64,000 bases of DNA from Halobellus sp. MBLA0158 (lineage in GTDB: Archaea; Halobacteriota; Halobacteria; Halobacteriales; Haloferacaceae): NCBI RefSeq assembly GCF_041477585.1, contig NZ_JBGNYA010000001.1, positions 1,054,001 through 1,118,000 on the forward strand. The letters are read 5' to 3'. The position numbers and the translations under genes were made by a program. The notes under the pieces were generated by a model that was not told where the DNA came from, searched no databases, and was given only the letters and a program-made list of their open reading frames with translations. Shown in pieces: positions 16,432 to 31,072 of this stretch (position 1 is the stretch's first letter; each line of letters opens with the position of its first letter).

Positions 16432-17520
16432 TTACAGCAGGTCGTCCAGTTCGTCGTTCGTCCACTGCTCGGCCGGATCGGTCCGCTCGGCCGCCCCCTC
16501 GACGTCTTCCTCCTGGGCGTCTTTCGCCCGCTGGAGGAACGTCTCCAGGCGCTCGGAGCGCTCGACGCCGCCCAGGAGCACGAGCGTGGCGATCCGGTCG
16601 CTGGAGAGGGGGAAGTCCCCACCGCGGACCTGGAGGCTCCCCGTCTCCTCTTCGACCCACCGGCGCGCGCGCTCGACGCCCTTCCGCGGGATGGCGTCCT
16701 GGTCGCCGGCGACGATCAGGAGCGCGGCGTCGGCGTCGGTCGCGTCCGGCAGGCTCGATCCGGTGAGGAGGGCGCGCCGGGTCGTGCTCATCACGGCGTT
16801 GATGTTCTCCTCGGCGTCGGGGGCGGCCTCCGCCGAGGCGTAGCCGAGCGCGGCGATGCCGCCGGAGCGGAGCGTGTTGATGATCTCCGAGGAGTCGACG
16901 ACGCTCTCGGCGACGCCCTCGACGGCCTCGCCGGAGGCGAGAAGCAGGCCGACGCGCTGGGCGATCTCGTGATTGATCGAGTCGTAGCCCTCGGTGACGC
17001 TCTCGCCCACCGAGCGGAAGGCGTCGTTGTCGACGAGGAGGAGGGAGTCGGCCTCGCGCGCGAAGGTCTTCAGCGACCGGCCGGCGTTCACCTGGTACAT
17101 CGACCCCTCGTCCTTGCCGGGGAGGATGCCGAGGCCGTAGACGGGGACGTCGTAGATGCGCTTGAGTTCCCTCGTCAGGACCGGGGCGCCGCCGCTGCCG
17201 GTGCCGCCGCCGAGTCCCGCGACCACAAAGATGGACTCGGTCCCGGCGACCACGCGGCCGTCGAGCGCCGACAGCACCTCCTGTGTGTCGGACTGCATCA
17301 CCTCGGCGCCGAGTTCGTTGTCGCCGCCGACGCCGTGGCCCTTCACCCTGTCCTGGCCGATGAGGACGGTCTCGAAGGGCAGATCCTGGAGGTCGGTCTT
17401 GGCGGTGTTGACCGCGACCGCGCCGCGGACGGAGCCGAACCCCATCCGTTCGTCGTATTCGACCAGTTCGCGGGCGAGTTTCCCGCCGGCCTGGCCGACG
17501 CCGATCAGGACGGACTTCAT
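16432..17520 (-). CDS. cetZ: CetZ tubulin/FtsZ-like GTPase
   Basis: A 362-residue protein. It starts MKSVLIGVGQAGGKLARELVE, with NTAKTDLQDL after, and the tubulin GTP-binding signature GGGTGSG lies at 104-110. The CetZ family controls cell shape and motility-related morphology in haloarchaea rather than the division ring itself. The C-terminus ends in an acidic tail, WTNDELDDLL. Which paralogue it is cannot be decided here. It is divergent from the pilus-like cluster, with starts 124 bases apart, so regulatory DNA may be shared. Confidence 0.9.
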   Translation of the reverse strand: MKSVLIGVGQAGGKLARELVEYDERMGFGSVRGAVAVNTAKTDLQDLPFETVLIGQDRVKGHGVGGDNELGAEVMQSDTQEVLSALDGRVVAGTESIFVVAGLGGGTGSGGAPVLTRELKRIYDVPVYGLGILPGKDEGSMYQVNAGRSLKTFAREADSLLLVDNDAFRSVGESVTEGYDSINHEIAQRVGLLLASGEAVEGVAESVVDSSEIINTLRSGGIAALGYASAEAAPDAEENINAVMSTTRRALLTGSSLPDATDADAALLIVAGDQDAIPRKGVERARRWVEEETGSLQVRGGDFPLSSDRIATLVLLGGVERSERLETFLQRAKDAQEEDVEGAAERTDPAEQWTNDELDDLL

Positions 17521-17612: not shown

Positions 17613-17643
17613 GTTTATATCGGATACCGCACCCACCCGCGGT
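17613..17643 (+). promoter_or_regulatory. Pilus-like cluster promoter 1
   Basis: GTTTATAT begins exactly 31 bases before the ATG at 17644. The sequence next to the start is CCACCCGCGGT. The same TATA box, spacing and start-proximal block recur before 18649 and 22530. Confidence 0.65.
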
Positions 17644-18132
17644 ATGACGAGCGACTCCGACGGCGCGGACGACGGATCGACGCGGGACGCGAACGCGAAT
17701 AGCGGCACCGAAGACGCCCGAGAGCGAATCGACCGACTGGAACGCCGCGTCGCGTCTCTGGAGTCGGAACTCGACGCGGCCCGTGGGCTGCTCGGCGGCA
17801 TCGCGGCCGTCGACGAGTCGGTCGATCGCCGCGCGTCGATCGCGCTCGCCAAAGCCGAATCGCTCGAACGCGAGTTCGCCGCCGCCGAGCCCGGACTCGT
17901 CCGCGAGCGGCTTGCCGAGCCGTCGGACGGGGAGGCTCGGTCGGGTGGCGGGGCCTCGGAGAACGGGACGGCCCCGGCGGCGTCCACTCGCTCCGAGCGA
18001 CCGGTGGCCGACGAGGCTCGGCCGCCGGCGAACGCGAATCACTCGGCGGCATCGCCGTCCTCAGTGTCGGACGGACGTGACACCGACGCCGACGACGGCC
18101 TCGCGGCGAGGCTGCGCGGCGTGCTCCGGTGA
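17644..18132 (+). CDS. Coiled-coil protein of pilus-like cluster (DUF7310-like)
   Basis: A 162-residue protein with no signal or membrane segment. Residues ~25-60 form a coiled coil (RIDRLERRVASLESELDAA), continued by another helix with ALAKAESLEREF. The rest is disordered and Ser/Asp-rich, ending in a short basic helix LAARLRGVLR. It resembles the haloarchaeal family placed just before the secretion ATPase. It overlaps the next gene by 4 bases (GTGA). A cytosolic adaptor role is conceivable but unproven. Confidence 0.68.
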   Translation: MTSDSDGADDGSTRDANANSGTEDARERIDRLERRVASLESELDAARGLLGGIAAVDESVDRRASIALAKAESLEREFAAAEPGLVRERLAEPSDGEARSGGGASENGTAPAASTRSERPVADEARPPANANHSAASPSSVSDGRDTDADDGLAARLRGVLR

Positions 18133-18605
18133 TCCGGCTGGTCGTCGCCGCGGCGCTCGCGGTCGCGATGGTCGCGGCGGCAGCCCCGGCGGTCGAGGAC
18201 GCGCAGGCGACGCGGACGGCCGACACCGTCGAGGCGTTCGGCGATCGGCTGGACCGGGCCGGACGGTCGCTCGCGGCGACCAGCGATTCGGCCACCAGCG
18301 TCGATCTGGCGGCCACGCGCGGCGTCGCGTTCACGTACCCGGGGGCGTCGTGGACGACGGCGCGGCCCGCGTTCGTCGCCGTCGGCGGGCGCCCCGGCGG
18401 GTCCGGGAACCGCTCGGTGCTCGCCTACGCGCTGCCCTCGTCGCCGACGCGACTCCGCGCGCTCTCGCTACCGGTGCCCGTGCGGACGCCGACCGGCCCG
18501 GTCGTGTTCCGCGGACGCGGCCGGCAGACGGTCTCGCTCGCGCTCGTCGCCGGCGCAGACGGCGACGGGCCCGCGCTGGTGATCGGCCGCGGCGACGCCG
18601 CCTGA
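18129..18605 (+). CDS. Membrane-anchored protein of pilus-like cluster (DUF7311-like)
   Basis: A 158-residue protein with a GTG start inside the previous stop. The N-terminus, IRLVVAAALAVAMVAAAAPAVEDA, is a single hydrophobic helix followed by a probable extracytoplasmic domain rich in Ala, Thr and strand-forming residues. No prepilin peptidase site or cysteine is evident. Its position between the coiled-coil protein and the ATPase is the main clue to its role. Confidence 0.65.
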   Translation: MIRLVVAAALAVAMVAAAAPAVEDAQATRTADTVEAFGDRLDRAGRSLAATSDSATSVDLAATRGVAFTYPGASWTTARPAFVAVGGRPGGSGNRSVLAYALPSSPTRLRALSLPVPVRTPTGPVVFRGRGRQTVSLALVAGADGDGPALVIGRGDAA

Positions 18606-18617
18606 CGTCGCCCGACC

Positions 18618-18648
18618 GTTTATATACCGAGACGCGGCCACCCGCCGT
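18618..18648 (+). promoter_or_regulatory. Pilus-like cluster promoter 2
   Basis: GTTTATAT begins exactly 31 bases before the ATG at 18649. The stretch before the ATG reads GGCCACCCGCCGT, nearly the same as at promoters 1 and 3. Confidence 0.65.
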
Positions 18649-20703
18649 ATGTCGCGATACCTCGATTCGCTCCGCGCCGACGCCTTCGGTTCACTGCTCA
18701 CCGACGCCGCGGTCTCGGTCGGGCTGTCCGGTGGATCAGCAGAGGCCACATCTTCGGACGCCGACGCGGAGGCGGACTCGGAAGTCTGCCGGTGCTCGGT
18801 CGCCGTCGAGTCCCCCACCGGGCTGGGGCTCGCAGATCGGTGCGTGCTCGTCGTTGACGCCGACGACTGCCCCGGCCGCGGGCGACTCGAAGCCGGTCCC
18901 GCGTGTCGAGCCACCGTCGTCGACGCCCTCGTCGAGCGCGACGTCGACGCCGTTCGGACCCGACACGCAGGCCGCGAGCGCACGTACGTCGACGCGGCAC
19001 TGGCGCTGCTCGTCGCCGCCGGCCGCTTCGTCGAGCGCGCCGCCGTCCACGACGCCGACTTGGCCGACCGAGCCCGCCGTGATCCGCTCTCGGCGGCGCA
19101 CAGGGCCACCGGACGCGCGGGCGCAGTCGCCCGGATCGCCGCCGAGTGCGGCCTCGCCGAACTGGCCGCACGCGTCGGCGCCGAGGGAGCACCGCCGTCG
19201 GAGGCCGGCGAATCGGACGCCTACGAGCGGGCGCTGGATCCGTTCGTCGGCCCCACGATCTCCCGGACGCGGGTGTCTCGACGGCTCCTGCCGGGTGCGC
19301 GGGTCGTTTCGGAGCGATCGCTTCCGACCGGCGCGGTGGCACGTATCTGCGAAGCGCCTTCCGGGACGTACTACCATCTCACGCCCGCGACCGAGGGACT
19401 CGACGCCGACGCGACGGCGACACTTGCCACCGCCTACGACGTGCTCGCGAACGGCTCGGTCGGCGGCGGATCGCGGGCGCCGGGGCGGGCGGTCAGGCGC
19501 GTCGCGGGCGACGACGAGCCGATCGAGACGCTCTCGGCGGTGCTCGCGCGCCACACCCGCGGGCTCGGCGTCTTCGAGCACCTCTTCGCCGACGAGGCGG
19601 TCTCGGACGTCGTCGCCTCCGCGCCCGTGGTCGACGGCCCGGTCCGGGTCGTCGTCGACGGCGAGCGGTTCCCGACGAACGTCCACCTGACGCCCGGCGG
19701 CGCGGCCGCGCTCGCCTCGCGGTTCCGCCGGGAGAGCGGGCGGGCCTTCTCGCGGAGCTCGCCCGCGCTCGACGCCTCTGTCGTCGCCGAGACGGGGCGG
19801 CGGATACGCGTTGCCGGCGTGACCGCGCCAGCCAGCGACGGCGTCGGATTCGCGTTCCGCGTCCGCGACGACGAGCCCTGGACGCTCGGCCGACTCGTCG
19901 CCGCGGGATCGCTCTCTGCCCGCGCGGCGGCCTTCCTGTCGCTCGCAGTCGAGCGCGGCTCGGCGCTCATCGTCGCCGGCACCCGCGGCGCCGGGAAGAC
20001 GACCCTGCTCGGGGCGCTGCTGTGGGCGCTCCCGGCCGCGACGCGGCTCGTGACGATCGAGGATACGCCGGAGTTGCCGGTCGAATCCCTCCGCGAGCGC
20101 GGACGTGACGTGCAGGCGCTCCATACCGACGCGGTGCTGGGCGATGCGGCGAGCGAGGGGCGCTCCTCCGACGGATTCGCTCCGACGGACGCGCTCCGCG
20201 CGGCGCTCCGACTCGGCGACGGCGCGCTCGCCGTCGGCGAAGTCCGCGGCGAGGAGGCGGGCGCGCTCTACGAGGCGATGCGCGTCGGCGCTCAGGGCCA
20301 CGCGGTCTTAGGGACGATCCACGGCGACTCGGCGGCCGCCGTCCGCGAGCGCGTCGTCTCCGATCTGGGGGTGCCGCCCTCGTCGTTCGGCGCGACGGAC
20401 CTCGTCGTCACCTGCACCCGCGACGGCGACGCGCGACGGGTCTCCGCGATCGAGGCGGTCGAGACGCACGGCGGCGAGTCGTCGTTTCCCGCGCTCTTCG
20501 CGCGCGATGCGGGGCAACTCCGTCCCTCCGGTCGCATCGAGCGCGGCGAGAGCGCCGTCGTCGATCGGCTTCGATCACCGGGCGAGTCCTACGCCGAGTT
20601 CCTCGCGGCACTGGGGGCTCGGACGGCCCGGATCGATCGGCTCGCGACTACCGGGCTGACGCGGCCGGCGGATCTCGACGCCGAACGGAGCGAGACGCGA
20701 TGA
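18649..20703 (+). CDS. Type II/IV secretion-pilus ATPase
   Basis: A 684-residue protein. The N-terminal region holds five cysteines (47, 49, 65, 74, 86) that could bind zinc, then a helical domain. The motor domain starts near residue 290. Walker A is GTRGAGKTT (about 444-452), the Walker B region is ALAVGEVRGEEA, and the His box is GQGHAVLGTIHGDS in parts (about 550-560). Such ATPases power assembly of pilus or pseudopilus fibres. It overlaps the TadC-like gene by 4 bases. It is distinct from the archaellum FlaI and PilB3 contexts, as no archaellum genes are nearby. Confidence 0.88.
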   Translation: MSRYLDSLRADAFGSLLTDAAVSVGLSGGSAEATSSDADAEADSEVCRCSVAVESPTGLGLADRCVLVVDADDCPGRGRLEAGPACRATVVDALVERDVDAVRTRHAGRERTYVDAALALLVAAGRFVERAAVHDADLADRARRDPLSAAHRATGRAGAVARIAAECGLAELAARVGAEGAPPSEAGESDAYERALDPFVGPTISRTRVSRRLLPGARVVSERSLPTGAVARICEAPSGTYYHLTPATEGLDADATATLATAYDVLANGSVGGGSRAPGRAVRRVAGDDEPIETLSAVLARHTRGLGVFEHLFADEAVSDVVASAPVVDGPVRVVVDGERFPTNVHLTPGGAAALASRFRRESGRAFSRSSPALDASVVAETGRRIRVAGVTAPASDGVGFAFRVRDDEPWTLGRLVAAGSLSARAAAFLSLAVERGSALIVAGTRGAGKTTLLGALLWALPAATRLVTIEDTPELPVESLRERGRDVQALHTDAVLGDAASEGRSSDGFAPTDALRAALRLGDGALAVGEVRGEEAGALYEAMRVGAQGHAVLGTIHGDSAAAVRERVVSDLGVPPSSFGATDLVVTCTRDGDARRVSAIEAVETHGGESSFPALFARDAGQLRPSGRIERGESAVVDRLRSPGESYAEFLAALGARTARIDRLATTGLTRPADLDAERSETR

Positions 20704-22472
20704 CGAACGGCGCCGACGCGGTCGTCAGGGTGGCGCGGACGCTCGCCGGCTGGTATCCGGGCGACGTCGAGCCGACGCGGGAGCTGCACCGGTCCCTGGC
20801 ATTCGTCGAGAGCGACCTCGCCGGCGACACCGTCGTCCGCGCCGGCTACGTCCTCGCGCCCGTCGTCGTGGTCACCGTCTTCGCCGTCCTCGCGCTCGCG
20901 ATCCCCGGCCTGTCACTTCCCGCGGCGCTGCCGCTGGCGGCCGGGCTCGGACTGTGCGCTACCCACGTGGTCCATCGACTGCCCGTCGCGGCGGCGACGC
21001 TCCGCCGGACGCGCTCGCTCGGCGACGCGCCCGGCCTCGTCGCCCGCGCGGCGCTGCGGCTCCGGCTCGATCCGTCGCCCGAACGGGCCGCGCTGTTCGC
21101 CGCGCGGACGGGGGAGGGTCCGCTGGCGCGCAGCCTGGCCGCGCACGTCGAACGCACCCGCGCGGGGCCGACGTCGGGGCTCGGCGCGTTCGCGGCCGAG
21201 TGGCGGACGTGGTTCCCGGCGCTGGAGCGCTCGACGTCGCTGCTTTCGGCCGCGGTCGACGGTCCGACCGACGAGCGCGATCGCGCGCTCGACCGCGCGC
21301 TGGAGACGGTGCTCGACGGCACCCGCTCGGAGATGGCGGACTTCGCGGGCGCCGTTCGCGGGCCCGCGAGCGGCATCTACGCCTTCGGCGTCCTCCTGCC
21401 GCTCGCCCTGGTCGGCGTGCTTCCCGCCGCCAGCGCGGCCGGGATGTCGGTGCCGGCTGCCGCGTTCGTCCTCCTCTACGACGTCGCTCTCCCGGGCGGC
21501 CTGGTCGTCGCCGGCGCGTGGCTGCTCCTCCAGCGGCCGGTCGCGCTCGCGCCGGCGCGGGTGCTCGCGTCCCACCCCGACGTCCCCTCCGGTCCGATTC
21601 GCGGCGTGGCCGCGGGCGTCGCGTGCGCGGGAGCCGGCGCCGTCGTCGGTGGCTTCGTCGCCCCGTGGGCACCGCCGGTCGCGGCCGCCGGACTCGGCGT
21701 CGGCGGCGCGCTCGCCGTCCACTACCGACCTATGGCCGCGGTGAGAAAGCGGGTCCGACGGGCGGAAGCGGGGCTCGCGGACGCGACGGCGGTCGTCGGC
21801 CGGCGCGTCGGCGCCGGCGAGTCCGTCGAGACGGCCATCGAGTCGGCGGCGGAGGCGACCACCGGCCCGACGAGCGACCTCTTCGACGAGGCGGCCGGCG
21901 TGCAGCGACGGCTCCGCGTCGGCATCGACCGCGCGTTCCTGGGCGAACACGGCGCACTCGCGGACCTCCCGAGCCCGCGGGCCCGCGCGACGGCGACCCT
22001 GCTGGCCATCGCGGGGCGCGAGGGCCGTCCGGCCGGCCCGATGCTCGTGCGGCTCGCCGATCATCTCACCGAACTCCGGCGGGTCGAGGCCGATGCCCGC
22101 CGCGAGCTCGCGGCGATCACGGGGACGCTCACGCACACCGCGGCCCTCTTCGGCCCGCTCGTCGGCGGCGCGACCGTCGCGATGGCCGTCCAGATGGCCG
22201 CGGCGGAGACGGCCCGGCCCGTCGGATCGGCGGCCGCCGCGTCCTCCGCGTTCGGCGCCGCGTCGGAGTCCGCGACCGCGATCGCGCCCTCCCTCTTCGG
22301 GACGGCCGTCGGCGCGTACGTGCTCGTGCTCGCGGTCGTCCTGACCGTCGTCGCGACCGGGCTCGACCGCGGCCTCAATCGCTCGCTCGTCGGCTACCGC
22401 GTCGGTCTAGCGCTCTGCTCGGCGACCGCAGCGTACCTTGCGGCGTTCGTCGGCGCGTCCACGCTGTTCTGA
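20700..22472 (+). CDS. TadC/PilC-like platform membrane protein
   Basis: A 590-residue integral membrane protein. It has two T2SSF-type repeats: helical cytosolic segments at about residues 90-220 and 350-470, each followed by hydrophobic helices. Further membrane segments lie near 45-85, 225-280, 300-340 and 540-590. This is the usual layout of the inner-membrane platform on which the ATPase acts. Its ATG overlaps the ATPase stop (ATGA), giving a coupled pair, the core of any type IV pilus-like machine. Confidence 0.82.
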   Translation: MTNGADAVVRVARTLAGWYPGDVEPTRELHRSLAFVESDLAGDTVVRAGYVLAPVVVVTVFAVLALAIPGLSLPAALPLAAGLGLCATHVVHRLPVAAATLRRTRSLGDAPGLVARAALRLRLDPSPERAALFAARTGEGPLARSLAAHVERTRAGPTSGLGAFAAEWRTWFPALERSTSLLSAAVDGPTDERDRALDRALETVLDGTRSEMADFAGAVRGPASGIYAFGVLLPLALVGVLPAASAAGMSVPAAAFVLLYDVALPGGLVVAGAWLLLQRPVALAPARVLASHPDVPSGPIRGVAAGVACAGAGAVVGGFVAPWAPPVAAAGLGVGGALAVHYRPMAAVRKRVRRAEAGLADATAVVGRRVGAGESVETAIESAAEATTGPTSDLFDEAAGVQRRLRVGIDRAFLGEHGALADLPSPRARATATLLAIAGREGRPAGPMLVRLADHLTELRRVEADARRELAAITGTLTHTAALFGPLVGGATVAMAVQMAAAETARPVGSAAAASSAFGAASESATAIAPSLFGTAVGAYVLVLAVVLTVVATGLDRGLNRSLVGYRVGLALCSATAAYLAAFVGASTLF

Positions 22473-22498
22473 ATCCGCTTCCGAGTCCGGGCGTGAGG

Positions 22499-22529
22499 GT
22501 TTATATATCAAAACGGGGCCATCCGCGCT
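22499..22529 (+). promoter_or_regulatory. Pilus-like cluster promoter 3
   Basis: GTTTATAT begins exactly 31 bases before the ATG at 22530. GGCCATCCGCGCT precedes the ATG, matching promoters 1 and 2. It would start a third transcript covering the four small to large membrane proteins. Confidence 0.65.
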
Positions 22530-23009
22530 ATGTTCGACCTGACGCTGGACGCGTGGTACGGCTGGATCGGGCTGTCGCTGGCGAGCGTCGCGCTCTTCGG
22601 GGCGGTCGCCGGGCTCCCGACGGCGCCGCCGCCCGACGCGGGGGCCGTGGCGGCGACGATCGACCGGGTCGCGGGCGCGGAGTACGCCTCGACGGCCGAG
22701 CACCCACTCGACGCCGAGCAGATCCGGCTTGGTACACGCCGGATCGCGCTCCGTTCGGACGCCGGGACCGCGCACGCGACGCTCTCGTTCGGCCCGGTGA
22801 CGCCGGTCCCCGTGACCGATTCGCCGCTCCGGGACGTCCTCCACGGTATGCCCCCGGAGCGGGCGTTCGACTCGCCCGAGGCGTTCCGCCAGGCGGTCGT
22901 CGCCGCCCGTGCCAACGCGACCGACGCGCCGTGGCGCGAGGTCGACCGGACGCTGATCGCCCGCCGGACCACCTGGGAGGGAGTGGATGTCGTCCTCGTC
23001 GACGCGTGA
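22530..23009 (+). CDS. Pilus-like cluster membrane protein (DUF7283-like)
   Basis: A 159-residue protein. One membrane helix lies near the N-terminus (about residues 12-31, WIGLSLASVALFGAVAGL), followed by an extracytoplasmic domain of ~125 residues with paired strands. The layout resembles a pseudopilin or minor pilin, but no canonical charged prepilin cleavage site precedes the helix. It overlaps the next gene by 23 bases in another frame. Confidence 0.65.
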   Translation: MFDLTLDAWYGWIGLSLASVALFGAVAGLPTAPPPDAGAVAATIDRVAGAEYASTAEHPLDAEQIRLGTRRIALRSDAGTAHATLSFGPVTPVPVTDSPLRDVLHGMPPERAFDSPEAFRQAVVAARANATDAPWREVDRTLIARRTTWEGVDVVLVDA

Positions 23010-23406
23010 GGGCGGCGCGGACGCGCGGGCGCAGACGACGCCGATCGTCGCCCTGATAGCGCTCTTCGCGGTCTGTTCCGGCGTCTCGCTGTACGCGAGC
23101 GCGCTGACGGCAGCGACGCCCTCCGAGACGACCAACGCTTTGGCCGAGCCGACGCTGGACCGCGTCCACGACGCCGTGAGCACTGGCGGAGTCGTCGACC
23201 CGTTCGCGCTGCCGCGGGCCGCCGGCGTCGCTCCCGACGGCTACCGCGTCGCCGTCGAAGTGACGACCGACCGGGGCCGCTTCGGCTCCGGCAGCCCGCC
23301 GCCGCGGGGAGGAGTCGACGTCGACCGGGCGAGCCGTCCGGCGAGCGTCGATGTCGGGACCGGCGATGTCGTGTGGGGGCGGCTGACGGTCTGGGTGTGG
23401 CGATGA
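22987..23406 (+). CDS. Pilin-like protein (DUF7285-like)
   Basis: A 139-residue protein. The N-terminus has a short hydrophilic stretch, then RAQTTPIVALIALFAVCSGVSLYA in parts, a charged residue followed by a hydrophobic helix. This recalls archaeal pilins, where a short leader is cleaved before a Q-containing hydrophobic segment. The remaining ~100 residues form a small extracytoplasmic domain. It begins within the previous gene and its stop overlaps the next ATG (ATGA), so expression is tightly coupled. Confidence 0.65.
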   Translation: MSSSSTREGGADARAQTTPIVALIALFAVCSGVSLYASALTAATPSETTNALAEPTLDRVHDAVSTGGVVDPFALPRAAGVAPDGYRVAVEVTTDRGRFGSGSPPPRGGVDVDRASRPASVDVGTGDVVWGRLTVWVWR

Positions 23407-24317
23407 ACGCCGCGCTCGACGCCGGCGTCTGCCTCCTTCTCCTCTCCGCCGGCGTCGTCGGCCTCGTGACGGTCGACCAGGCGCCCCCGGCGACGCCCAG
23501 CCGCGCCGACGCCGTCGCCGACGCGCTCGCGACGACGACCGCGCAGGTCGACTACTCGCTGACGCCCGACGTCGACGCGCTGAACGCGTCAGGTGCGGCG
23601 GTCGCAGACGAGGAGACGTTCGCTCCCGACTCGCCCGAACTCGATCGGACGAGCCACGGAAGTCTCGCGGGGCTGCTGGCTCGCGCCGCGACCGCCAGCG
23701 GTGGGGTCGCGCTCGACGCGGTCGAGCCGAATGCGACGACGGAGCCCGAGATCCATCCGCTCACGCGAACGCGGTCCGGTTTCGCGCGCGCCGTGGGCGA
23801 CGCCGTCCTGGCGCGAACCGGCGCGAAAGTACGCGTGGACGCGACGTGGCGGCCGTATCCGGATGCACCCGTCGGTGGACAGTTTGGCGTCGGTCCCGAT
23901 CCGCCCGCCGGCCGCGTCCACGCGGCGTCGCTCGTGATCCCGACCGGCGTCGAGCCGCTCCCGCCGTCCGCTCGGACCGACTTCGACGCGCTGGGATCCG
24001 CCGTGGCCGACCGCACGGTCGCCGTCCTCGTCCCCGCGGGGCCGGCGCGCGTGACGCTCCGCGGCGACGATCCGACGGCCGCCCTGGTGCGCCACCGCTA
24101 CGCCCGTCTCGCGTCGGTGACGAACGCATCCCTCACGGAACCGCTCGCGACTGAGGACACCAGAGCGGCCAACGAGCGAGTCGCGCGACGCCTCGAAGCC
24201 CGGATCACCGGCGACCTGCGGGCGGCGCACGACACGCCGATGGAGGCCGTCGAGGCGGTCTCGGTGGACTCGGTCCGCATCGTCGTCAGGACGTGGCCCG
24301 CGTCGGAGGGGATCTGA
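23403..24317 (+). CDS. Pilus-like cluster membrane protein (DUF7284-like)
   Basis: A 304-residue protein with one N-terminal membrane helix (about residues 6-25, DAGVCLLLLSAGVVGLVTV) and a large extracytoplasmic domain. The start MNAALDAG was chosen because its ATG overlaps the previous stop; the longer open frame adds only codons that read the neighbour out of frame. No enzyme motif is visible. It directly abuts the 1020-residue gene. Confidence 0.65.
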   Translation: MNAALDAGVCLLLLSAGVVGLVTVDQAPPATPSRADAVADALATTTAQVDYSLTPDVDALNASGAAVADEETFAPDSPELDRTSHGSLAGLLARAATASGGVALDAVEPNATTEPEIHPLTRTRSGFARAVGDAVLARTGAKVRVDATWRPYPDAPVGGQFGVGPDPPAGRVHAASLVIPTGVEPLPPSARTDFDALGSAVADRTVAVLVPAGPARVTLRGDDPTAALVRHRYARLASVTNASLTEPLATEDTRAANERVARRLEARITGDLRAAHDTPMEAVEAVSVDSVRIVVRTWPASEGI

Positions 24318-27300
24318 ATGCGGCTCGCCGACGACGACCGCGCACGCGTGCCGTTCGCGCTCCTCGGCGTGTTGCTCCTCGTCGGGAGCTCGACGTTCGC
24401 TGCCTCGCTCGCGACGCCGGGCCCGGAACCGATCGATCGGGCCGCGGACGTCGCGGCCGACCGCGTCGAGGGCGAGGTGACGGCCGCGGTCCGCACTGCG
24501 GTTCGCGACGCCGCCCGCGCGGCCGCCCGCGACCCGGTCACGGTCGCGGCCGACACGCCCGCCGGCCGAGCACTCGGAACGGAGGACCCGTTCCGACGGT
24601 CCCTCCGGCTTCGGATCTTCGCCGCCGCCCGCGACGCGGTCGGGCCGATCGAACACCGCAGAGGCGAGAGCGTCGCCCACGCCTCGTTCGGTGCGGGTGT
24701 CGAGGACGTCGAGGGCGCGCTCTCTCGGGTCTCCGTCGCGGGGCGAGACGACGGAACGGAGCTCCGGGCGACGGTCCGCGGCATCGCGGTGACGGTCAAG
24801 CGGAACGGACGCGTCCTCGACTCTTACCGGACGAACCGCACCGTCACCGTCGCCGTTCCCGTGCTCGCGCTCCACGACCGGACCGAGGCCTTCCAGACGC
24901 GCCTCGACGCGGACCCGATCGCGGCGCCGGGGCTCGCCCGGCGGCTGACGGTCGGCGTCACGGCGATGGCGCAGGCCCGCGGACTCGGCCAGTACGGCGG
25001 GCTGCCGATCTCGAACGTCGTCGGCAACCGCCACGTCGCGCTCTCGACGAACGCAGGCTTACTCGACGCCCAGCGGGCGTCGTTCGGACACGCCGACCCC
25101 GAGGCCGCCGCTGGCGTCCGCGCGGCGACGCTTCAGACCGGCGTCACCGACGTCCTCGGGCCGCGGACCGACCCCCGCGTCCTCGCCGCGGTGACGGGAC
25201 AGCTCCCGGATCCGAACGACGCCGAACGCGTGGACGCCGCCTCGCGGCCGGGCGCGCTCCCGGCGACGCGCACGATCACGGTCGGCGTCAACGACACGGC
25301 GGACGAGGCCTTCGTCGCGCTCCTCCGGGGCACGGACGGTCCGAATCTCGATTCGATCCGTCGAGAGAGCTACCGCGCGAGCGTCAGCGTCGGCGCCGAT
25401 GCGCGGCTGGTGCGGAACGGCCGTCGGCCGTCGCCACGCGCTCCCGGCGAAAACTGGACGCTCGCGTACTCCGACGTCGATACGAGCGTTTCGGTCCGGG
25501 GCGGTGGCCGCTCTACCGCCGTCGTCTCCGCCGGCCATCGCGCGCGCCGGCTCTACGCGGCCACGCGCCGCGTGGTCGAACGTCACACCGTCCGGCGCAC
25601 CTGGGTCAAGATCAACGCCTCACCCAGAACAACCTCGGCATCCTGGCGCGACGCCCATCGCGTCCGCGTGACTGCGACCGGCCGCCTCGGCGACGCCCGC
25701 GGACCGGACCGCGCCGTCGACCCGCTCTTCCGGACGGGCGGCGCGATCGGCGGGCCGAACCTCCGAGGCGGTAGCTCCGTCGCCCGGGACCTCGTCGCCG
25801 AACTCGGCGGTCCCGACGCGATCGCTCGACGGGCGGTGACCGGCGGCCGGACGAACGCCCGAACGCGGTTCACCGGCGACCGCCCCGACGACCTCTCGGC
25901 GTGGGTGTACGCCGACGTCGCGGCGCTCCGGGAACGGGTCCGACGTCTCTCCGTGGAGGTATCAGCCAGCGACGCCGCGACGGGACAGCGCAACGGCGCC
26001 GCCCGGCTGGCCGATCGGGTCAGGAGCCGCCGCGCGGCCCTCCTCGATGCGCCGCGGCGCTACGACGGCGCCGCCGACCGCGCTCGGGTCGCCGCGCGCG
26101 CCGCGTACCTCGATCTCGTGCTCGCTCGCCTGGACGAGCGCGCGGGGCAGACGGGGAAGCAGAACGCCGGCATCGGCCGAGCGCTCGCGGCGAAGGGTAT
26201 CTCGGCGACCAGAGCGAACGACCTCGCCGACCTGACGCCCGAAGCCCCGTCCCGTCGGTTCGCCCTCGGGAGCGACTCCGGGGCCCGCGGACGGACCGCC
26301 TTCGTCCCCGACGGCGACCCGGCGTACCTCGCGCCCGCGCCGGTCGAGGGGTCGCTCGTCGACGGCATCGCCGACGACGAGCGGTACGTCGGCCTCGCGG
26401 TCAGGAACCTCAACGTCTTCGCGGTCCCGTACGGCGACGCCGCGGACCTGGTCACGCGGACGCTCTTCGGCGATCCCGGTCGCGTGTCGCTCCACACCGC
26501 CGGCCAGTCGCTCGTCGCCGCCGACCGAACGCTCGCGGCGCATCCGAACGCGACGCTCCGGGCGCGGACCGACCACCTGAGATCGAGAGTCGCCCAGTCG
26601 ATGGATCACATCCGGGAGCGAGCGACGCGGACGCTCGCCCGCGAGTCGTCGCTGTCGCGTCCCGAGAGCGAGACCGTCGTCCGACGGGCGTTCGCGCGAT
26701 GGGACAGCCCCGGTGAGCGCGCGGTCGCCGCGACGGACGGATCGCTGGCGGCCGCGGTCGCGTCGGCCGCGATCGAGGAGGGAGCGGCACGCGAAAGCGA
26801 CGGCTCCCGAACGGTGACCGAAGACCGCATCCGAACGGCGCTCCGCGTCGATCTCCGGGACACCGCGACGAGCGCGGACGTCCGCGTCTCGCAGGCCGCC
26901 GTCGAGGACGCGGTCTCGACGACCCGAGGGCTCCTCCGCGAGGAGGCACGGGCGAGGGCGGGAGCCGCGACCGAGCGGGCGATCGCGCGGGCGTCGAACG
27001 GGACCGTCGGCGGTATCCCGGCGGGCCTGCCGATCCTCCCGACGCTCAACCCCTGGGTCGCGACCGCGAACGTCTGGGTCGTCGAGTCCCGCGGCGCCTA
27101 CGGGCGCTTCGCCGTCACGACCGACTCGGGCGCCACGACGTACGTTCGCGACGGCTCGTCGGTCGCTTTCGACGTGGACGGCGACGGCGAACCCGAGGTC
27201 CTCGGTCGGAACGAACGGATCGGCTTCCGGGTCCGGACGGTCGCCGTCGTGGCCGTCCCGGCGGGGAAGCTCGGCGTCGGCGACACGGACGGCAATGTCG

Positions 27301-27380
27301 ACGAGCGATCGGTGGCGTGGGCCGGTCCCGAACCCGGCCCGCGCTGTGTCACGCCGACCGGGCGGTGTCCGCGGGAGTAG
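24318..27380 (+). CDS. Giant membrane-anchored protein of pilus-like cluster (DUF7286-like)
   Basis: A 1020-residue protein starting immediately after the previous stop. One membrane helix lies near the N-terminus (about residues 13-32, VPFALLGVLLLVGSSTFAASL). The long extracytoplasmic part is rich in Ala, Arg and helices, with NGT/NAT-type sequons. The end has a strand-rich region containing AFDVDGDGEPEV, a possible Ca-binding-like DxDGD loop, and two cysteines. It is the largest gene in the cluster, perhaps an adhesin-like or structural component. That is inference from anchor plus length. Confidence 0.68.
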   Translation: MRLADDDRARVPFALLGVLLLVGSSTFAASLATPGPEPIDRAADVAADRVEGEVTAAVRTAVRDAARAAARDPVTVAADTPAGRALGTEDPFRRSLRLRIFAAARDAVGPIEHRRGESVAHASFGAGVEDVEGALSRVSVAGRDDGTELRATVRGIAVTVKRNGRVLDSYRTNRTVTVAVPVLALHDRTEAFQTRLDADPIAAPGLARRLTVGVTAMAQARGLGQYGGLPISNVVGNRHVALSTNAGLLDAQRASFGHADPEAAAGVRAATLQTGVTDVLGPRTDPRVLAAVTGQLPDPNDAERVDAASRPGALPATRTITVGVNDTADEAFVALLRGTDGPNLDSIRRESYRASVSVGADARLVRNGRRPSPRAPGENWTLAYSDVDTSVSVRGGGRSTAVVSAGHRARRLYAATRRVVERHTVRRTWVKINASPRTTSASWRDAHRVRVTATGRLGDARGPDRAVDPLFRTGGAIGGPNLRGGSSVARDLVAELGGPDAIARRAVTGGRTNARTRFTGDRPDDLSAWVYADVAALRERVRRLSVEVSASDAATGQRNGAARLADRVRSRRAALLDAPRRYDGAADRARVAARAAYLDLVLARLDERAGQTGKQNAGIGRALAAKGISATRANDLADLTPEAPSRRFALGSDSGARGRTAFVPDGDPAYLAPAPVEGSLVDGIADDERYVGLAVRNLNVFAVPYGDAADLVTRTLFGDPGRVSLHTAGQSLVAADRTLAAHPNATLRARTDHLRSRVAQSMDHIRERATRTLARESSLSRPESETVVRRAFARWDSPGERAVAATDGSLAAAVASAAIEEGAARESDGSRTVTEDRIRTALRVDLRDTATSADVRVSQAAVEDAVSTTRGLLREEARARAGAATERAIARASNGTVGGIPAGLPILPTLNPWVATANVWVVESRGAYGRFAVTTDSGATTYVRDGSSVAFDVDGDGEPEVLGRNERIGFRVRTVAVVAVPAGKLGVGDTDGNVDERSVAWAGPEPGPRCVTPTGRCPRE

Positions 27381-27443: not shown

Positions 27444-28658
27444 TCAGCGGAGCCGCGCGGCGATCAGCCCTTCGAGGTCGTCGCGGAACTCGTCGACTGC
27501 GATCTCTTCGAGGACGGGCACGAAGAAGCCCTCGACGAGCATATTCCGCGCCTGTCCGTCGGGGATCGCCCGCGACACCATGTAGAACAGGTCCTCCTTG
27601 TCGACCTGGCCGACCGTCGCGGAGTGGGAGGCCTCGGTGTCGTGATTGTGGATGATCAGCTTCGGCGACGCGTCGGCCTCGCTGTCGTCCGACAGCATCA
27701 GCGTGTTCTCGCGCTGGTACGAGGAGGTGTTCCACGCCTCGCGGCCGACGTCCTGGACGCCCTCGTACACCGAGCGGGCCTCGTCGTCGAGGACGCCGCG
27801 GGTCACGAGGTCGGCGGTCGTGTTCTCGGCGTTGTGCCAGACGCGCGCGTTGACGTCGAAGTGCTGGTCGCCGTGACCGAAGAACGCGCCGACGATCTTC
27901 GTCTCCGAGGAGTCGCCGTTGAGTTCGGACTCGACGTCAGAGCGGGTCAGTCGGGAGCCGAGGTTGCCCTCGATCCAGTTGACCGTCGCGTAGGTGCCGA
28001 CGTCCGCGCGCTTCAGCGAGTACGTGTAGGTGTCCTCGTCGAGGTCCTGCAGCGAGCCGTACTGGACGTAGGAGTTCTCGCCGGCGTCGATCTCGACGAG
28101 GTTCGAGAAGTACCGCGCGTCGGCGTCGACGTCCTCGCCGGACTCGATGCTCTCCAGAATCGTCACCGACGACGACTCCTCGGTGACGACGAGCGTGTGG
28201 CTGAACAGCGAGCGGGAGTTCATCTCCGCGCGGACGGTCACGTCCTCGGCGTCGACGCCCTCAGGGACGTAGACGACCGTGCCGGTGGTGAAGAGCGCCG
28301 CCGACAGCGCGGTCAGGTAGTTCTCTTCGGGGTCGACCGTCGAGCCGAACGCGGACTCGACCAGGTCGGGGTGCTCGTCGAGCGCCTCGGTGAAGGTGAG
28401 GACCTCGACGCCCTCGGCCGAGGTCCGCTCGGTCTCGTCGCCCTGATCGAGCGGGTCGACGAGCGACTCGAAGTCGAGCGCTTCGAGGTTCGTCCAGCGC
28501 CGGCCGGGCGTTTGGATGACGTCTGGCAGCTCCAGTTCGTCGAGCGCGTCGAGCGCCGAGAGCCGCCGTTCGAGCAGCCACTCGGGCTCGTCGCGCGCGT
28601 CCGAAATTTCGCGAACCGTCTCTTCGGAGAGGTTCGCCGGGAGTTGTACGCCGCTCAT
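27444..28658 (-). CDS. sufD: Fe-S cluster assembly protein SufD
   Basis: A 404-residue member of the SufB/SufD beta-helix family. VYVPEGVDAEDV, the HTLVV strands and the C-terminal NHDTEASHSATVGQ with RAIPDGQARNMLVEGF are typical. In the SufBC2D scaffold, SufD pairs with SufB and supplies a His ligand for cluster building. It lies one base downstream of sufB, so it is co-transcribed. The cysteine-poor sequence (none seen near the end) distinguishes it from a sulfur-accepting subunit. Confidence 0.92.
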   Translation of the reverse strand: MSGVQLPANLSEETVREISDARDEPEWLLERRLSALDALDELELPDVIQTPGRRWTNLEALDFESLVDPLDQGDETERTSAEGVEVLTFTEALDEHPDLVESAFGSTVDPEENYLTALSAALFTTGTVVYVPEGVDAEDVTVRAEMNSRSLFSHTLVVTEESSSVTILESIESGEDVDADARYFSNLVEIDAGENSYVQYGSLQDLDEDTYTYSLKRADVGTYATVNWIEGNLGSRLTRSDVESELNGDSSETKIVGAFFGHGDQHFDVNARVWHNAENTTADLVTRGVLDDEARSVYEGVQDVGREAWNTSSYQRENTLMLSDDSEADASPKLIIHNHDTEASHSATVGQVDKEDLFYMVSRAIPDGQARNMLVEGFFVPVLEEIAVDEFRDDLEGLIAARLR

Positions 28659-28659
28659 A

Positions 28660-30090
28660 CTATCCGAGGCTCCCCTCCATTTCGAGTTCGACGAGGCGGT
28701 TGAGTTCGACCGCGTACTCGATCGGCAGCTCTTCGGTAATGGGCTCGATGAAGCCCGAGACGATCATCTGCTTGGCGTCGTCGTCGTCGAGGCCGCGCGA
28801 CTGGAGGTAGAACACGTCCTCGTCGCCGATCTTCCCCACTGTGGCCTCGTGGGCGACGTCGACCTTCGACTCGTTGATCTCCATATACGGCATCGTGTCC
28901 GACGTGGACTCGTTGTCGAACATCAGCGCGTCGCACTCGACCGAGGTCGAGGAGTCCGAGGCGCCGTCGGCGATGTGGACCAGTCCTCGGTAGTTGGTCC
29001 GGCCGCCGTCCTTCGAGATCGACTTCGACTCGATGGTCGACTTCGTGTTCGGCGCGTTGTGGTAGACCTTCGCGCCGGTGTCGATGTTCTGGCCCTCGCC
29101 CGCGAAGGCGATGGTGATGTGGTTGTCGGAGGCGCCCGGGCCCTTCAGGACGGTCGAGGGGTACAGCATCGTCGCCTTCGAGCCCATCGAGCCGGAGATC
29201 CACTCCATCCGGCCGTTCTTCTCGACGATGGCGCGCTTGGTGTTGAGGTTGTAGGTGTTCTTCGACCAGTTCTGGACGGTCGAGTACTGGACGTGGGCGT
29301 CCTCGCCGACGAAGACCTCGACGCCGCCGGAGTGCAGATTGAACGCGGAGTACTTCGGGGCCGAACAGCCCTCGATGTAGTGGACCTCCGCGCCGTCCTC
29401 GGCGACGATGAGGGTGTGCTCGAACTGGCCCATCCCCTCGGAGTTCATCCGGAAGTACGCCTGGACGGGCATCTCGACGGTGACGTCCTCGGGGACGTAC
29501 ACGAACGAGCCGCCGGACCAGACCGCGCCGTGGAGCGCCGCAAACTTGTTGTCCGACGGGGGAACGCACTTCGTCATGAAGTGCTCCTTGACGATCTCGG
29601 GGTGCTCCTGCACCGCCTTGTCCATATTCATGAAGATGACGCCCTTCTCCTCCCAGCGCTCCTGCATATTCTGGTAGACGACCTCGGACTCGTACTGAGC
29701 GCCGACGCCGGAGAGCGCGTTCTTCTCGGCTTCCGGGATACCGAGCTTGTCGAAGGTGTCCTTGATCTCGTCGGGGAGCTCCGTCCAGTCGTCGACGCCC
29801 GCGCGGACGTCGACGTCGGGGCGGATGTATGGGACGATCTCCGCGACGTCCACTTCCGAGAGGTCAGGCTGACCGGGCCAGTCGGTGGGCATCGGCATCT
29901 CCTGGAACTGCTCAAGCGCGCGGAGGCGCCGCTGCAGCATCCACTCGGGCTCGTCCTTGTCTTCGGAGATGACGCGGACCGTCTCCTCGGTCAGGCCCTT
30001 CTCGGTCTGGAACGCCGAGGACTCCTCCTTCTTGAAGTCGAAGCGGGCCTCGGTGTCCGTCTCTTTGAGGTGATCTTGTTCGGAACTCAT
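28660..30090 (-). CDS. sufB: Fe-S cluster assembly protein SufB
   Basis: A 476-residue protein. HYIEGCSAPKYS carries a conserved cysteine of the SufB core. KEHFMTKCVPPSDNKFAALHGAVWSGGSF, in parts, and VAHEATVGKIGDEDVFYLQSRG are family landmarks. SufB takes sulfane sulfur and builds the cluster in a complex with SufC ATPase and SufD. It has its own promoter in the 58-base gap after sufC. Its stop is one base from the sufD start. No SufS, SufE or SufU gene is in the window. Confidence 0.95.
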   Translation of the reverse strand: MSSEQDHLKETDTEARFDFKKEESSAFQTEKGLTEETVRVISEDKDEPEWMLQRRLRALEQFQEMPMPTDWPGQPDLSEVDVAEIVPYIRPDVDVRAGVDDWTELPDEIKDTFDKLGIPEAEKNALSGVGAQYESEVVYQNMQERWEEKGVIFMNMDKAVQEHPEIVKEHFMTKCVPPSDNKFAALHGAVWSGGSFVYVPEDVTVEMPVQAYFRMNSEGMGQFEHTLIVAEDGAEVHYIEGCSAPKYSAFNLHSGGVEVFVGEDAHVQYSTVQNWSKNTYNLNTKRAIVEKNGRMEWISGSMGSKATMLYPSTVLKGPGASDNHITIAFAGEGQNIDTGAKVYHNAPNTKSTIESKSISKDGGRTNYRGLVHIADGASDSSTSVECDALMFDNESTSDTMPYMEINESKVDVAHEATVGKIGDEDVFYLQSRGLDDDDAKQMIVSGFIEPITEELPIEYAVELNRLVELEMEGSLG

Positions 30091-30115
30091 TGTGTGTAGT
30101 GTGTGTTTACGGTTC

Positions 30116-30154
30116 CTTTCTTATGAGCCTGTGCGTAACTGAACATAGTTACGC
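30116..30154 (-). promoter_or_regulatory. sufB promoter with upstream 8-bp inverted repeat
   Basis: On the minus strand CATAAG (about 30120-30125) sits 30-35 bases before the sufB ATG. Just upstream, GCGTAACT (30133-30140) and AGTTACGC (30147-30154) form a perfect inverted repeat with a 6-base spacer that covers the sufC stop. It could be an operator or an mRNA processing hairpin. Confidence 0.55.
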
Positions 30155-31072
30155 GGTCTCGTAGACTTCCTCGCGGACCCAGTCGTAGCCGTGGTCTTCG
30201 AGCTGCTCGGCCAGTTCGGCGTCGCCGCTCTTGACGACCTTGCCGTCCAGCATAATGTGGACGTGATCGGGCTCGACGTACTCGAGAATCCGCTGGTAGT
30301 GGGTGATCTGCAGAATGCCGGTGCCCTGCTCGTCGCGGAGGGCGTTGATGCCCTTCGAGACGTCCTGGAGGCGGTCGATGTCCAGCCCGGAGTCGATCTC
30401 GTCGAGGACGGCGATCGCGGGCTCGAGGATGGCCGCCTGCAGGACCTCGTTCTGCTTCTTCTCGCCGCCGGAGAAGCCGGCGTTGAGGTAGCGCTGCATG
30501 AACTTCTCGTCCATGTCCAGCACCTCCATCTTCTCCTTGAGGAGCTGCTGGAACTCGGCGACGCCGATCTCGCCCTCGTCGGCGGGGCCCTCCATCGGCG
30601 AGGTCTCGTAGCCCGCCTCTTCGTCTTCGTCGTCCGCCTCGGCCTCGTCTTCGTCCTCCTCTTCGAAGAGCTCCTCGCGCTCTTCGAGCTTGGCGTTGAG
30701 CGCCGTCCGGAGGAAGTTCGTCATCGTGACGCCTTCGATCTCCGCGGGGTACTGGAAGCCGAGGAAGATACCGAGCGCCGCGCGCTCGTTCGGCTCTAGA
30801 TCGAGTAGATTCCAGGTGCGTTTGTCCTCGGGGATCTCGAGGTCCTGATCGAAGTCGTCTTCGTCGAGGTGGAGCAGGATCTCGCCCTCGGTCACCTCGT
30901 AGGCCGGGTGGCCGGCGATCACTTTCGCCGTCGTCGACTTCCCGGACCCGTTCGGTCCCATCAGGGCGTGGATCTCCCCGGAGTTGACCTCCAGGTCGAC
31001 GCCGCGAAGAATCTGTTCGCCGCCTTCCTCCGCCACGTTCGCGTGGAGGTTCTTGATTTCGAGTGTAGCCAT
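30149..31072 (-). CDS. sufC: Fe-S cluster assembly ATPase SufC
   Basis: A 307-residue ABC-type ATPase. Walker A GPNGSGKST lies at 39-47, signature FSGGEKKQNE from about 200, Walker B AVLDEIDSGLD at 221-231, and the H-loop in LQITHYQRIL. SufC drives conformational change of SufBD. It is longer than typical ~250-residue SufC because of an acidic insertion at about 129-168 (EEDEDEAEADDEDEEAG in it) and a longer acidic loop at 66-88. It is the promoter-proximal gene of sufCBD. Confidence 0.94.
   Translation of the reverse strand: MATLEIKNLHANVAEEGGEQILRGVDLEVNSGEIHALMGPNGSGKSTTAKVIAGHPAYEVTEGEILLHLDEDDFDQDLEIPEDKRTWNLLDLEPNERAALGIFLGFQYPAEIEGVTMTNFLRTALNAKLEEREELFEEEDEDEAEADDEDEEAGYETSPMEGPADEGEIGVAEFQQLLKEKMEVLDMDEKFMQRYLNAGFSGGEKKQNEVLQAAILEPAIAVLDEIDSGLDIDRLQDVSKGINALRDEQGTGILQITHYQRILEYVEPDHVHIMLDGKVVKSGDAELAEQLEDHGYDWVREEVYETA

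Follow-up and report, generated by a model that had tools for sequence, protein, structure and literature searches.

Can a pilin-like subunit do without prepilin cleavage, and in what kind of machine would it do so? This is the question raised by a locus of eight genes in a 64,000-nucleotide (nt) stretch of the genome of Halobellus sp. MBLA0158 (contig NZ_JBGNYA010000001.1, positions 1,054,001 to 1,118,000; hereafter the window). All eight genes lie on the + strand and fill positions 17644-27380 of the window, encoding proteins of 162, 158, 684, 590, 159, 139, 304 and 1020 residues (Table 1). For this locus we computed protein families, synteny, co-occurrence, the conservation of cleavage sites, leader state by clade and the homology of a methanogen operon. 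With a probability of roughly 0.7, it is a complete version, from Halobellus, of the haloarchaeal pil-2 type IV pilus locus (PilB2-PilC2, 'subclade 4F'), working as a PilB2/PilC2-driven filament with DUF7286 at its tip. Systems of this kind have already been described. The most interesting part of the locus is the pattern of leader loss in one of its pilin-like proteins, DUF7284, which appears to be unreported in the searchable literature.

Identity of the locus

A preliminary description of these genes, made from the letters alone, had counted eight of them and coupled an assembly ATPase to a TadC-like protein by a 4-nt overlap. Both points were borne out: the two proteins match the T2SSE and T2SSF families, and their genes are adjacent, co-oriented and overlap by ATGA. 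The other six proteins had been left nameless. All of them match Pfam families (DUF7310, DUF7311, DUF7283, DUF7285, DUF7284 and DUF7286), though none of these has a named function, and we judge the Pfam scores of the eight proteins to be far beyond chance. The six families are mentioned nowhere in the open-access literature that we searched, but the cluster itself, taken at first to be uncharacterised, has been described as pil-2, as subclade 4F and as the pilB2/C2 regulon (PMC4292770; PMC4858521; PMC9856176). We assign the window to this group because its Cys-rich ATPase N-terminus, coiled-coil partner, cetZ2 neighbour and prepilins fit the published descriptions.

In Halobacterium salinarum (Hbt. 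salinarum) R1, pil-2 (OE1347R-OE1332R) comprises pilB2 (arCOG01818), pilC2 and then FlaFind-positive prepilin genes. Its seven open reading frames (ORFs) are co-transcribed, the locus is present across haloarchaea, and adherent cells have 8.5-fold more pilB2 transcript (Losensky et al., 2015; PMC4292770). Likened by description, the two loci differ in that R1 has an in-frame stop in pilC2 and three FlaFind prepilins (PMC4292770), whereas the Halobellus locus has an intact pilC2 and a leaderless DUF7284. Subclade 4F, in the accessible part of Makarova et al. (2016; PMC4858521), resembles the window in its VirB11-type ATPase with a Cys-rich N-terminus, its TadC protein, the coiled-coil arCOG07564 and an ftsZ-like neighbour, and is linked there to Methanocella. 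The same part of that text holds neither a giant pilin nor a leader loss, the DUF families being compared with it by description and not by arCOG. The pilB2/C2 regulon, finally, lies beside cetZ2 in Haloferacales and Halobacteriales, the same genomic setting as in the window (Brown and Duggin, 2023; PMC9856176).

Among 74 orthologues of the ATPase, C47, C49, C74 and C86 are each 95% conserved, and the Walker A GxxxAGKT, DTPELP and GExRG motifs are conserved as well. Orthologues in Methanocella-like and M. acetivorans-like (Methanosarcina) genomes reach 256-262 bits against about 80-100 bits for paralogues, and with the paralogues of its own genome the window ATPase is only 29-34% identical. 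It shares an ATPase superfamily with TadA of Tad pili and with ArlI of the archaellum; however, it scores 113 bits with the TadA equivalog model (TIGR03819, cut-off 373) and 87 bits with the FlaI model of the archaellum ATPase (cut-off 550). No archaellum components were detected among the ten proteins scanned, and the locus holds no partner genes of archaellum or Tad type. The PilB3-PilC3 adhesion pili of Haloferax volcanii are alike in their ATPase, platform protein and PibD-processed pilins, but they have no co-encoded pilins, PilA1-6 standing alone.

Leaders of the pilin-like proteins

In an archaeal class III site, position -1 is alanine or glycine and position -2 is mostly charged, and some 20 hydrophobic residues follow. 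Known examples include RAQI, KGQV, RAVS and DAVS (PMC4371748). With a slash for the cut, DUF7286 carries the site R[AG]/[RH][VIM][PA]FA in 40 of 40 loci and DUF7285 the site R[AG]/xxxP in 39 of 40; in a second set, of 41 DUF7286 homologues, R8, R10, P12, F13 and A14 are invariant. The preliminary description, which had seen no known pilin with a standard signal, was mistaken on this point, and while it had the size of the 1020-residue membrane-anchored giant right, it overlooked the site. Because that site is conserved in every locus sampled, we read DUF7286 as a giant pilin-like protein with an exterior of about 1000 residues; with its invariant peptidase site it offers a definite target for tagging and imaging.

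By class III sites, DUF7285 and DUF7286 are the only prepilins of the Halobellus locus, in contrast to the roughly seven pilins and one surface protein given for the regulon (PMC9856176). DUF7283 has no [RK][AG] within its first 30 residues in any of 40 loci, and DUF7311 has no leader in any haloarchaeon examined. It had been noted, correctly, that no archaellum gene or prepilin peptidase lies in the locus; a single Peptidase_A24 prepilin peptidase is, however, encoded elsewhere in the same genome (G000:C1:359400-359780), as are five Pilin_N (PilA-type) genes. A FlaFind-like regular expression run over the whole window returned no further pilin, which proves little because DUF7285 was missed too.

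DUF7284 exists in two forms. Among 78 genes with a readable N-terminus, 31 encode a leader, always with R at -2 and A or G at -1 (31/31 each), followed by xS[TA][VAL]xD; the other 47 have none, R-[AG] being absent from -2/-1. An upstream start that would restore the leader is ruled out, as -2/-1 is not R-[AG] for any start and the start codon is fixed in 47/47 by a 4-nt overlap with the DUF7285 stop. This codon falls at -1 in 37 genes (always M/V-T) and at +1 in the remaining 10, so that in the leaderless lineage it appears to stand now where the peptidase formerly cut. The aspartate at +6 is invariant throughout (78/78). Leaders are found in Halobacteriales-type loci, which make up nearly all of the 31, and in Salinigranum and are missing from other Haloferacales, all 47 leaderless loci being of Haloferacales type; by genus, Haloarcula and Haladaptatus have them, and all sampled Haloferax and Halorubrum, like the window, do not. 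When the methanogen giants are used to root a DUF7286 tree, leader state needs only two changes; this tree was made with FastTree only, with its deep forks open, and on it two losses are indistinguishable from a loss and a regain. In two near-identical loci from metagenome-assembled genomes (L148 and L152), RG precedes the mature N-terminus and the overlap start is at +1. Their leader state is ambiguous, and they are possibly intermediates of the two forms.

This clade-wide loss amounts to a natural experiment on the reason for making pilins as precursors. Since culturable relatives include both leader-bearing and leaderless versions of one subunit, it can be tested directly whether prepilin cleavage is needed. 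Leaderless pilins are mentioned nowhere in the open-access literature that we searched. We tentatively suggest that the filament or tip complex of Haloferacales takes in DUF7284, and perhaps DUF7311 and DUF7283, without processing by the prepilin peptidase. Within this reading, and to be held just as tentatively, the leader would have been deleted and translation would begin at the mature N-terminus (M-TSTVLD or MNAALD); in the M-TSTVLD form, methionine aminopeptidase could expose Thr+1. If this is true, prepilin cleavage is not absolutely required for a pilin-like subunit. Threonine occupies +1 in 37/37 genes of the M-T class. As a sign of selection for methionine removal this is only suggestive, because an A at the start of the second codon is already imposed by the ATGA/GTGA overlap.

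The leaderless proteins may also have ceased to be pilin subunits, DUF7311, DUF7283 and DUF7284 being instead fixed components of the assembly base that span the membrane once. This is a possibility to be taken seriously, if somewhat short of even odds: in type IV pilus systems PibD processing is regarded as necessary for assembly (PMC4858521), and DUF7311 and DUF7283 are leaderless in all haloarchaea examined. However, where the leader is lost, DUF7284 has kept its mature N-terminus (xSTVLD, with its invariant aspartate), and the start codon has moved precisely to -1 or +1, and not randomly, as if the N-terminus still mattered.

Relatives, conservation and predicted folds

The system had been thought specific to haloarchaea in the preliminary description, and blastn had likewise confined pil-2 to them (Losensky et al., 2015; PMC4292770). 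Profile searches gave a contrary result, in agreement with the Methanocella link in PMC4858521. DUF7286 and DUF7284 occur outside haloarchaea, including in Methanosarcina acetivorans, a named control. Four Methanocella-like genomes of one family, which we take to be probably Methanocella, carry an operon M1-M2-M3-M4-giant that is syntenic with the haloarchaeal order. In hhalign comparisons the diagonal pairs DUF7311-M1 (probability 81%, E 1.2e-5), DUF7285-M3 (94%) and DUF7284-M4 (96%) are recovered, and for DUF7286 the match to the giant is at 1e-61 to 1e-49 in three of the four genomes. All five Methanocella-like proteins open with a short polar leader whose last residue is G or A; a hydrophobic stretch follows. 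Because a syntenic, homologous operon exists in methanogens, the system predates the haloarchaea. DUF7311 has lost its leader relative to the methanogen homologue, since this leader is absent in the haloarchaea examined and present in that homologue. Adjoining the Methanocella-like operon is a divergent gene for a coiled-coil protein whose C-terminus has a membrane helix (L158:8082-8582 and L159:8611-9024, both on the - strand), in a position reminiscent of haloarchaeal DUF7310.

Within haloarchaea the locus is widespread and conserved as a unit. We compared gene order in 81 loci (80 named genome loci and the window), sorting genes by their stop codons, as sorting by ORF start gave false reorderings. 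Matches of hidden Markov models for DUF7310, DUF7285 and TadC were filtered by position and strand, the first pass having included spurious high-GC ORFs. The order DUF7311-ATPase-TadC-DUF7283-DUF7285-DUF7284-DUF7286 is kept in 69 loci, 5 more keep all but DUF7311, and the remaining ones mostly look truncated or rearranged; the small proteins, whose gene order the preliminary description had proposed to check, are neither absent nor scattered. Of 60 relatives surveyed for co-occurrence, 41 have DUF7286; a PilB2 orthologue is present in 39 of these 41 and in none of the 19 without DUF7286. ATPase and giant are jointly present or absent in 58/60, and the two exceptions are fragmentary DUF7286 matches on short contigs.

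A few records stand apart. One genome of the Halobellus group (G009:C1:2656361-2657560) retains broken PilB2 pieces, 44-58% identical and one of them with a TAG, and lacks DUF7286; the system appears to be under loss there. In L061 (G033:C4:46488-49540) DUF7286 is split over two frames, each with an internal stop, and the rest of the cluster is kept, so that this copy would be either a pseudogene or an assembly error. The DUF7286 of a record titled Halobellus captivus strain ZY8 (L149) lies firmly within Halorubrum and that of H. captivus ZY21 (L080) groups with Halobellus; the former record is probably mislabelled or contaminated.

Two proteins were modelled with AlphaFold2. DUF7284 (predicted local distance difference test, pLDDT, 89) has a helix at residues 2-22, a low-confidence hinge at 23-26 and then an alpha/beta domain. 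In DUF7286 (pLDDT 80.5) several alpha/beta domains precede a beta domain at the C-terminus (915-997), a region among the parts best conserved in methanogens. The models support exterior domains in both proteins. The structural check that had been proposed thus yields confident extracellular-type domains, but no resemblance to a known pilin fold.

Filament, piston or scaffold

From these data we infer how a filament could form, which positions its subunits would take, how leaderless subunits might enter and what its biological role may be. The hexameric ATPase PilB2 would turn the TadC-like platform PilC2, and together they would pull single-helix pilin-like subunits from the membrane into a short surface filament. 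PibD, encoded elsewhere, would remove the class III leaders of DUF7285 and DUF7286, and DUF7286 would act as the large, outward-facing subunit at the tip or as something like an adhesin. Together with DUF7283, DUF7284 and DUF7311 these two would make up a minor-pilin or priming complex of five subunits, which would go back to an ancestor of methanogen type whose five proteins all carried leaders. In the Halobellus lineage the DUF7284 leader would then have been dropped, leaving the ribosome, and not the peptidase, to set the mature N-terminus. The major pilin would probably be a stand-alone PilA-type gene elsewhere in the genome, and accessory or positional roles are likely for DUF7310 and CetZ2. 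By analogy, adhesion seems the most likely role.

A surface fibre and a secretion machine had both been envisaged at first. What stands is a type IV pilus-like system with one ATPase, one platform and several pilin-like partners; secretion is left as a rival only, if the main one. It would work as in type II secretion, an endopilus-like piston of five single-helix proteins pushing or displaying DUF7286 or other exported proteins. Such a piston would fit a locus in which no gene resembles an abundant major pilin, the five pilin-like proteins being single-copy and two of them having 1020 and 304 residues; with the PilA-type genes elsewhere, the set looks like minor pseudopilins with a large partner. 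We nevertheless consider it unlikely, given that haloarchaea have no outer membrane to cross, that no substrate gene is linked to the locus, that the N-terminus of DUF7286 is of pilin and not of secretory type, and that Hbt. salinarum pilB2 responds to surface attachment (PMC4292770).

Several points weigh against a pil-2 filament with a DUF7286 tip. The assignment to subclade 4F was made by locus features and not by an ATPase tree with labelled clade members. A filament of a pil-2-type system of this kind has never been observed; in Hbt. salinarum pili depended on pil-1, and the function of pil-2 is doubtful there because pilC2 contains a stop (PMC4292770). The pair DUF7283-M2 is weak (p 0.035), though the best in its row. 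The N-terminal helix of DUF7286 (14-29) is predicted at low confidence, and a pilin head fold is neither demonstrated nor contradicted by the DUF7284 and DUF7286 models, for which Foldseek gives no PDB relative at E<=0.001. Lastly, three genomes (G024, G030 and G056) hold the pilin module without adjoining motor genes, their PilB2 gene lying elsewhere, so that pilin-like genes and motor are separable. The break falls between TadC and DUF7283, at the position of the third promoter (Table 1).

In G024 and G056 the PilB2 gene adjoins that of CetZ2, a tubulin-like GTPase whose gene is the divergent upstream neighbour in 50/81 loci and in the window, and which the preliminary description left unmentioned. 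That motor genes remain beside CetZ2 although the pilin module has moved is what a cytoskeleton-coupled machine with CetZ2 as essential scaffold, as suggested by Brown and Duggin (2023), would lead one to expect. Still, about nine genomes that have the locus lack a CetZ2 orthologue (e.g. G011, G013, G044 and G059; several are incomplete assemblies), and six have CetZ2 without the locus. CetZ2 is therefore neither necessary nor sufficient for the locus, and a scaffold of this sort is very improbable.

Table 1. Features of the pil-2-type locus and its divergent neighbour, in window positions. A slash marks the predicted cut; PDB entries 4b45 and 4b46 are presumably Haloferax CetZ2 and CetZ1.
Feature	Position	Strand	Remarks
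CetZ2 tubulin-like GTPase, divergent neighbour	16432..17520	-	phmmer against PDB: 4b45 551 bits, 4b46 340 bits
TATA-like box TTTATATC	17614..17621	+	30 nt 5' of DUF7310 ATG
DUF7310 coiled-coil protein	17644..18132	+	PF23991 4.7e-15; no membrane helix, probably cytoplasmic
DUF7311	18129..18605	+	PF23993 1e-37; N-terminal membrane helix, no prepilin leader
TATA-like box TTTATATA	18619..18626	+	30 nt 5' of ATPase ATG
PilB2-type assembly ATPase (T2SSE)	18649..20703	+	PF00437 1.9e-20; N-terminal motif C47xC49...C74...C86
PilC2/TadC-like multispanning platform protein (T2SSF)	20700..22472	+	PF00482 4e-6; conserved with the ATPase
TATA-like box TTTATATAT	22500..22508	+	30 nt 5' of DUF7283 ATG; pilin module begins here
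DUF7283	22530..23009	+	PF23954 5e-56; single N-terminal membrane helix, no leader
DUF7285, pilin-like	22987..23406	+	PF23956 8e-35; class III site DARA/QTTPIVALIALF (QTTP after the cut)
ATGA overlap DUF7285/DUF7284	23403..23406	+	fixes where DUF7284 starts, at mature position +1
DUF7284, pilin-like, leaderless here (MNAALDA)	23403..24317	+	PF23955 2e-78
DUF7286 giant pilin-like protein	24318..27380	+	PF23957 1113 bits, full length; class III site DDRA/RVPFALLGVLLLV (RVPF after the cut)

Genes within the locus are tightly packed: DUF7310 and DUF7311 overlap by GTGA, DUF7283 and DUF7285 by 23 nt, and DUF7284 and DUF7286 meet at TGAATG. The TATA-like boxes exactly 30 nt 5' of three ATGs suggest three transcription units (DUF7310-7311, ATPase-TadC and the pilin module) with a very short 5' untranslated region or none. 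A box 28-31 nt 5' of DUF7283 is present in 46/78 loci, against 0 for three control genes, which anchors the DUF7283 start.

The closest named genomes to the window locus are those of Halobellus species. Beyond CetZ2, a type I phosphodiesterase/nucleotide pyrophosphatase (PF01663; 15040-16389, + strand) adjoins it and fits the cetZ2-linked arCOG01377 (PMC9856176). Downstream of the pilus locus lie suf genes (sufD, sufB and an ABC-type ATPase, probably sufC; 27444-31072, - strand), in a gene order common only to other Halobellus loci.

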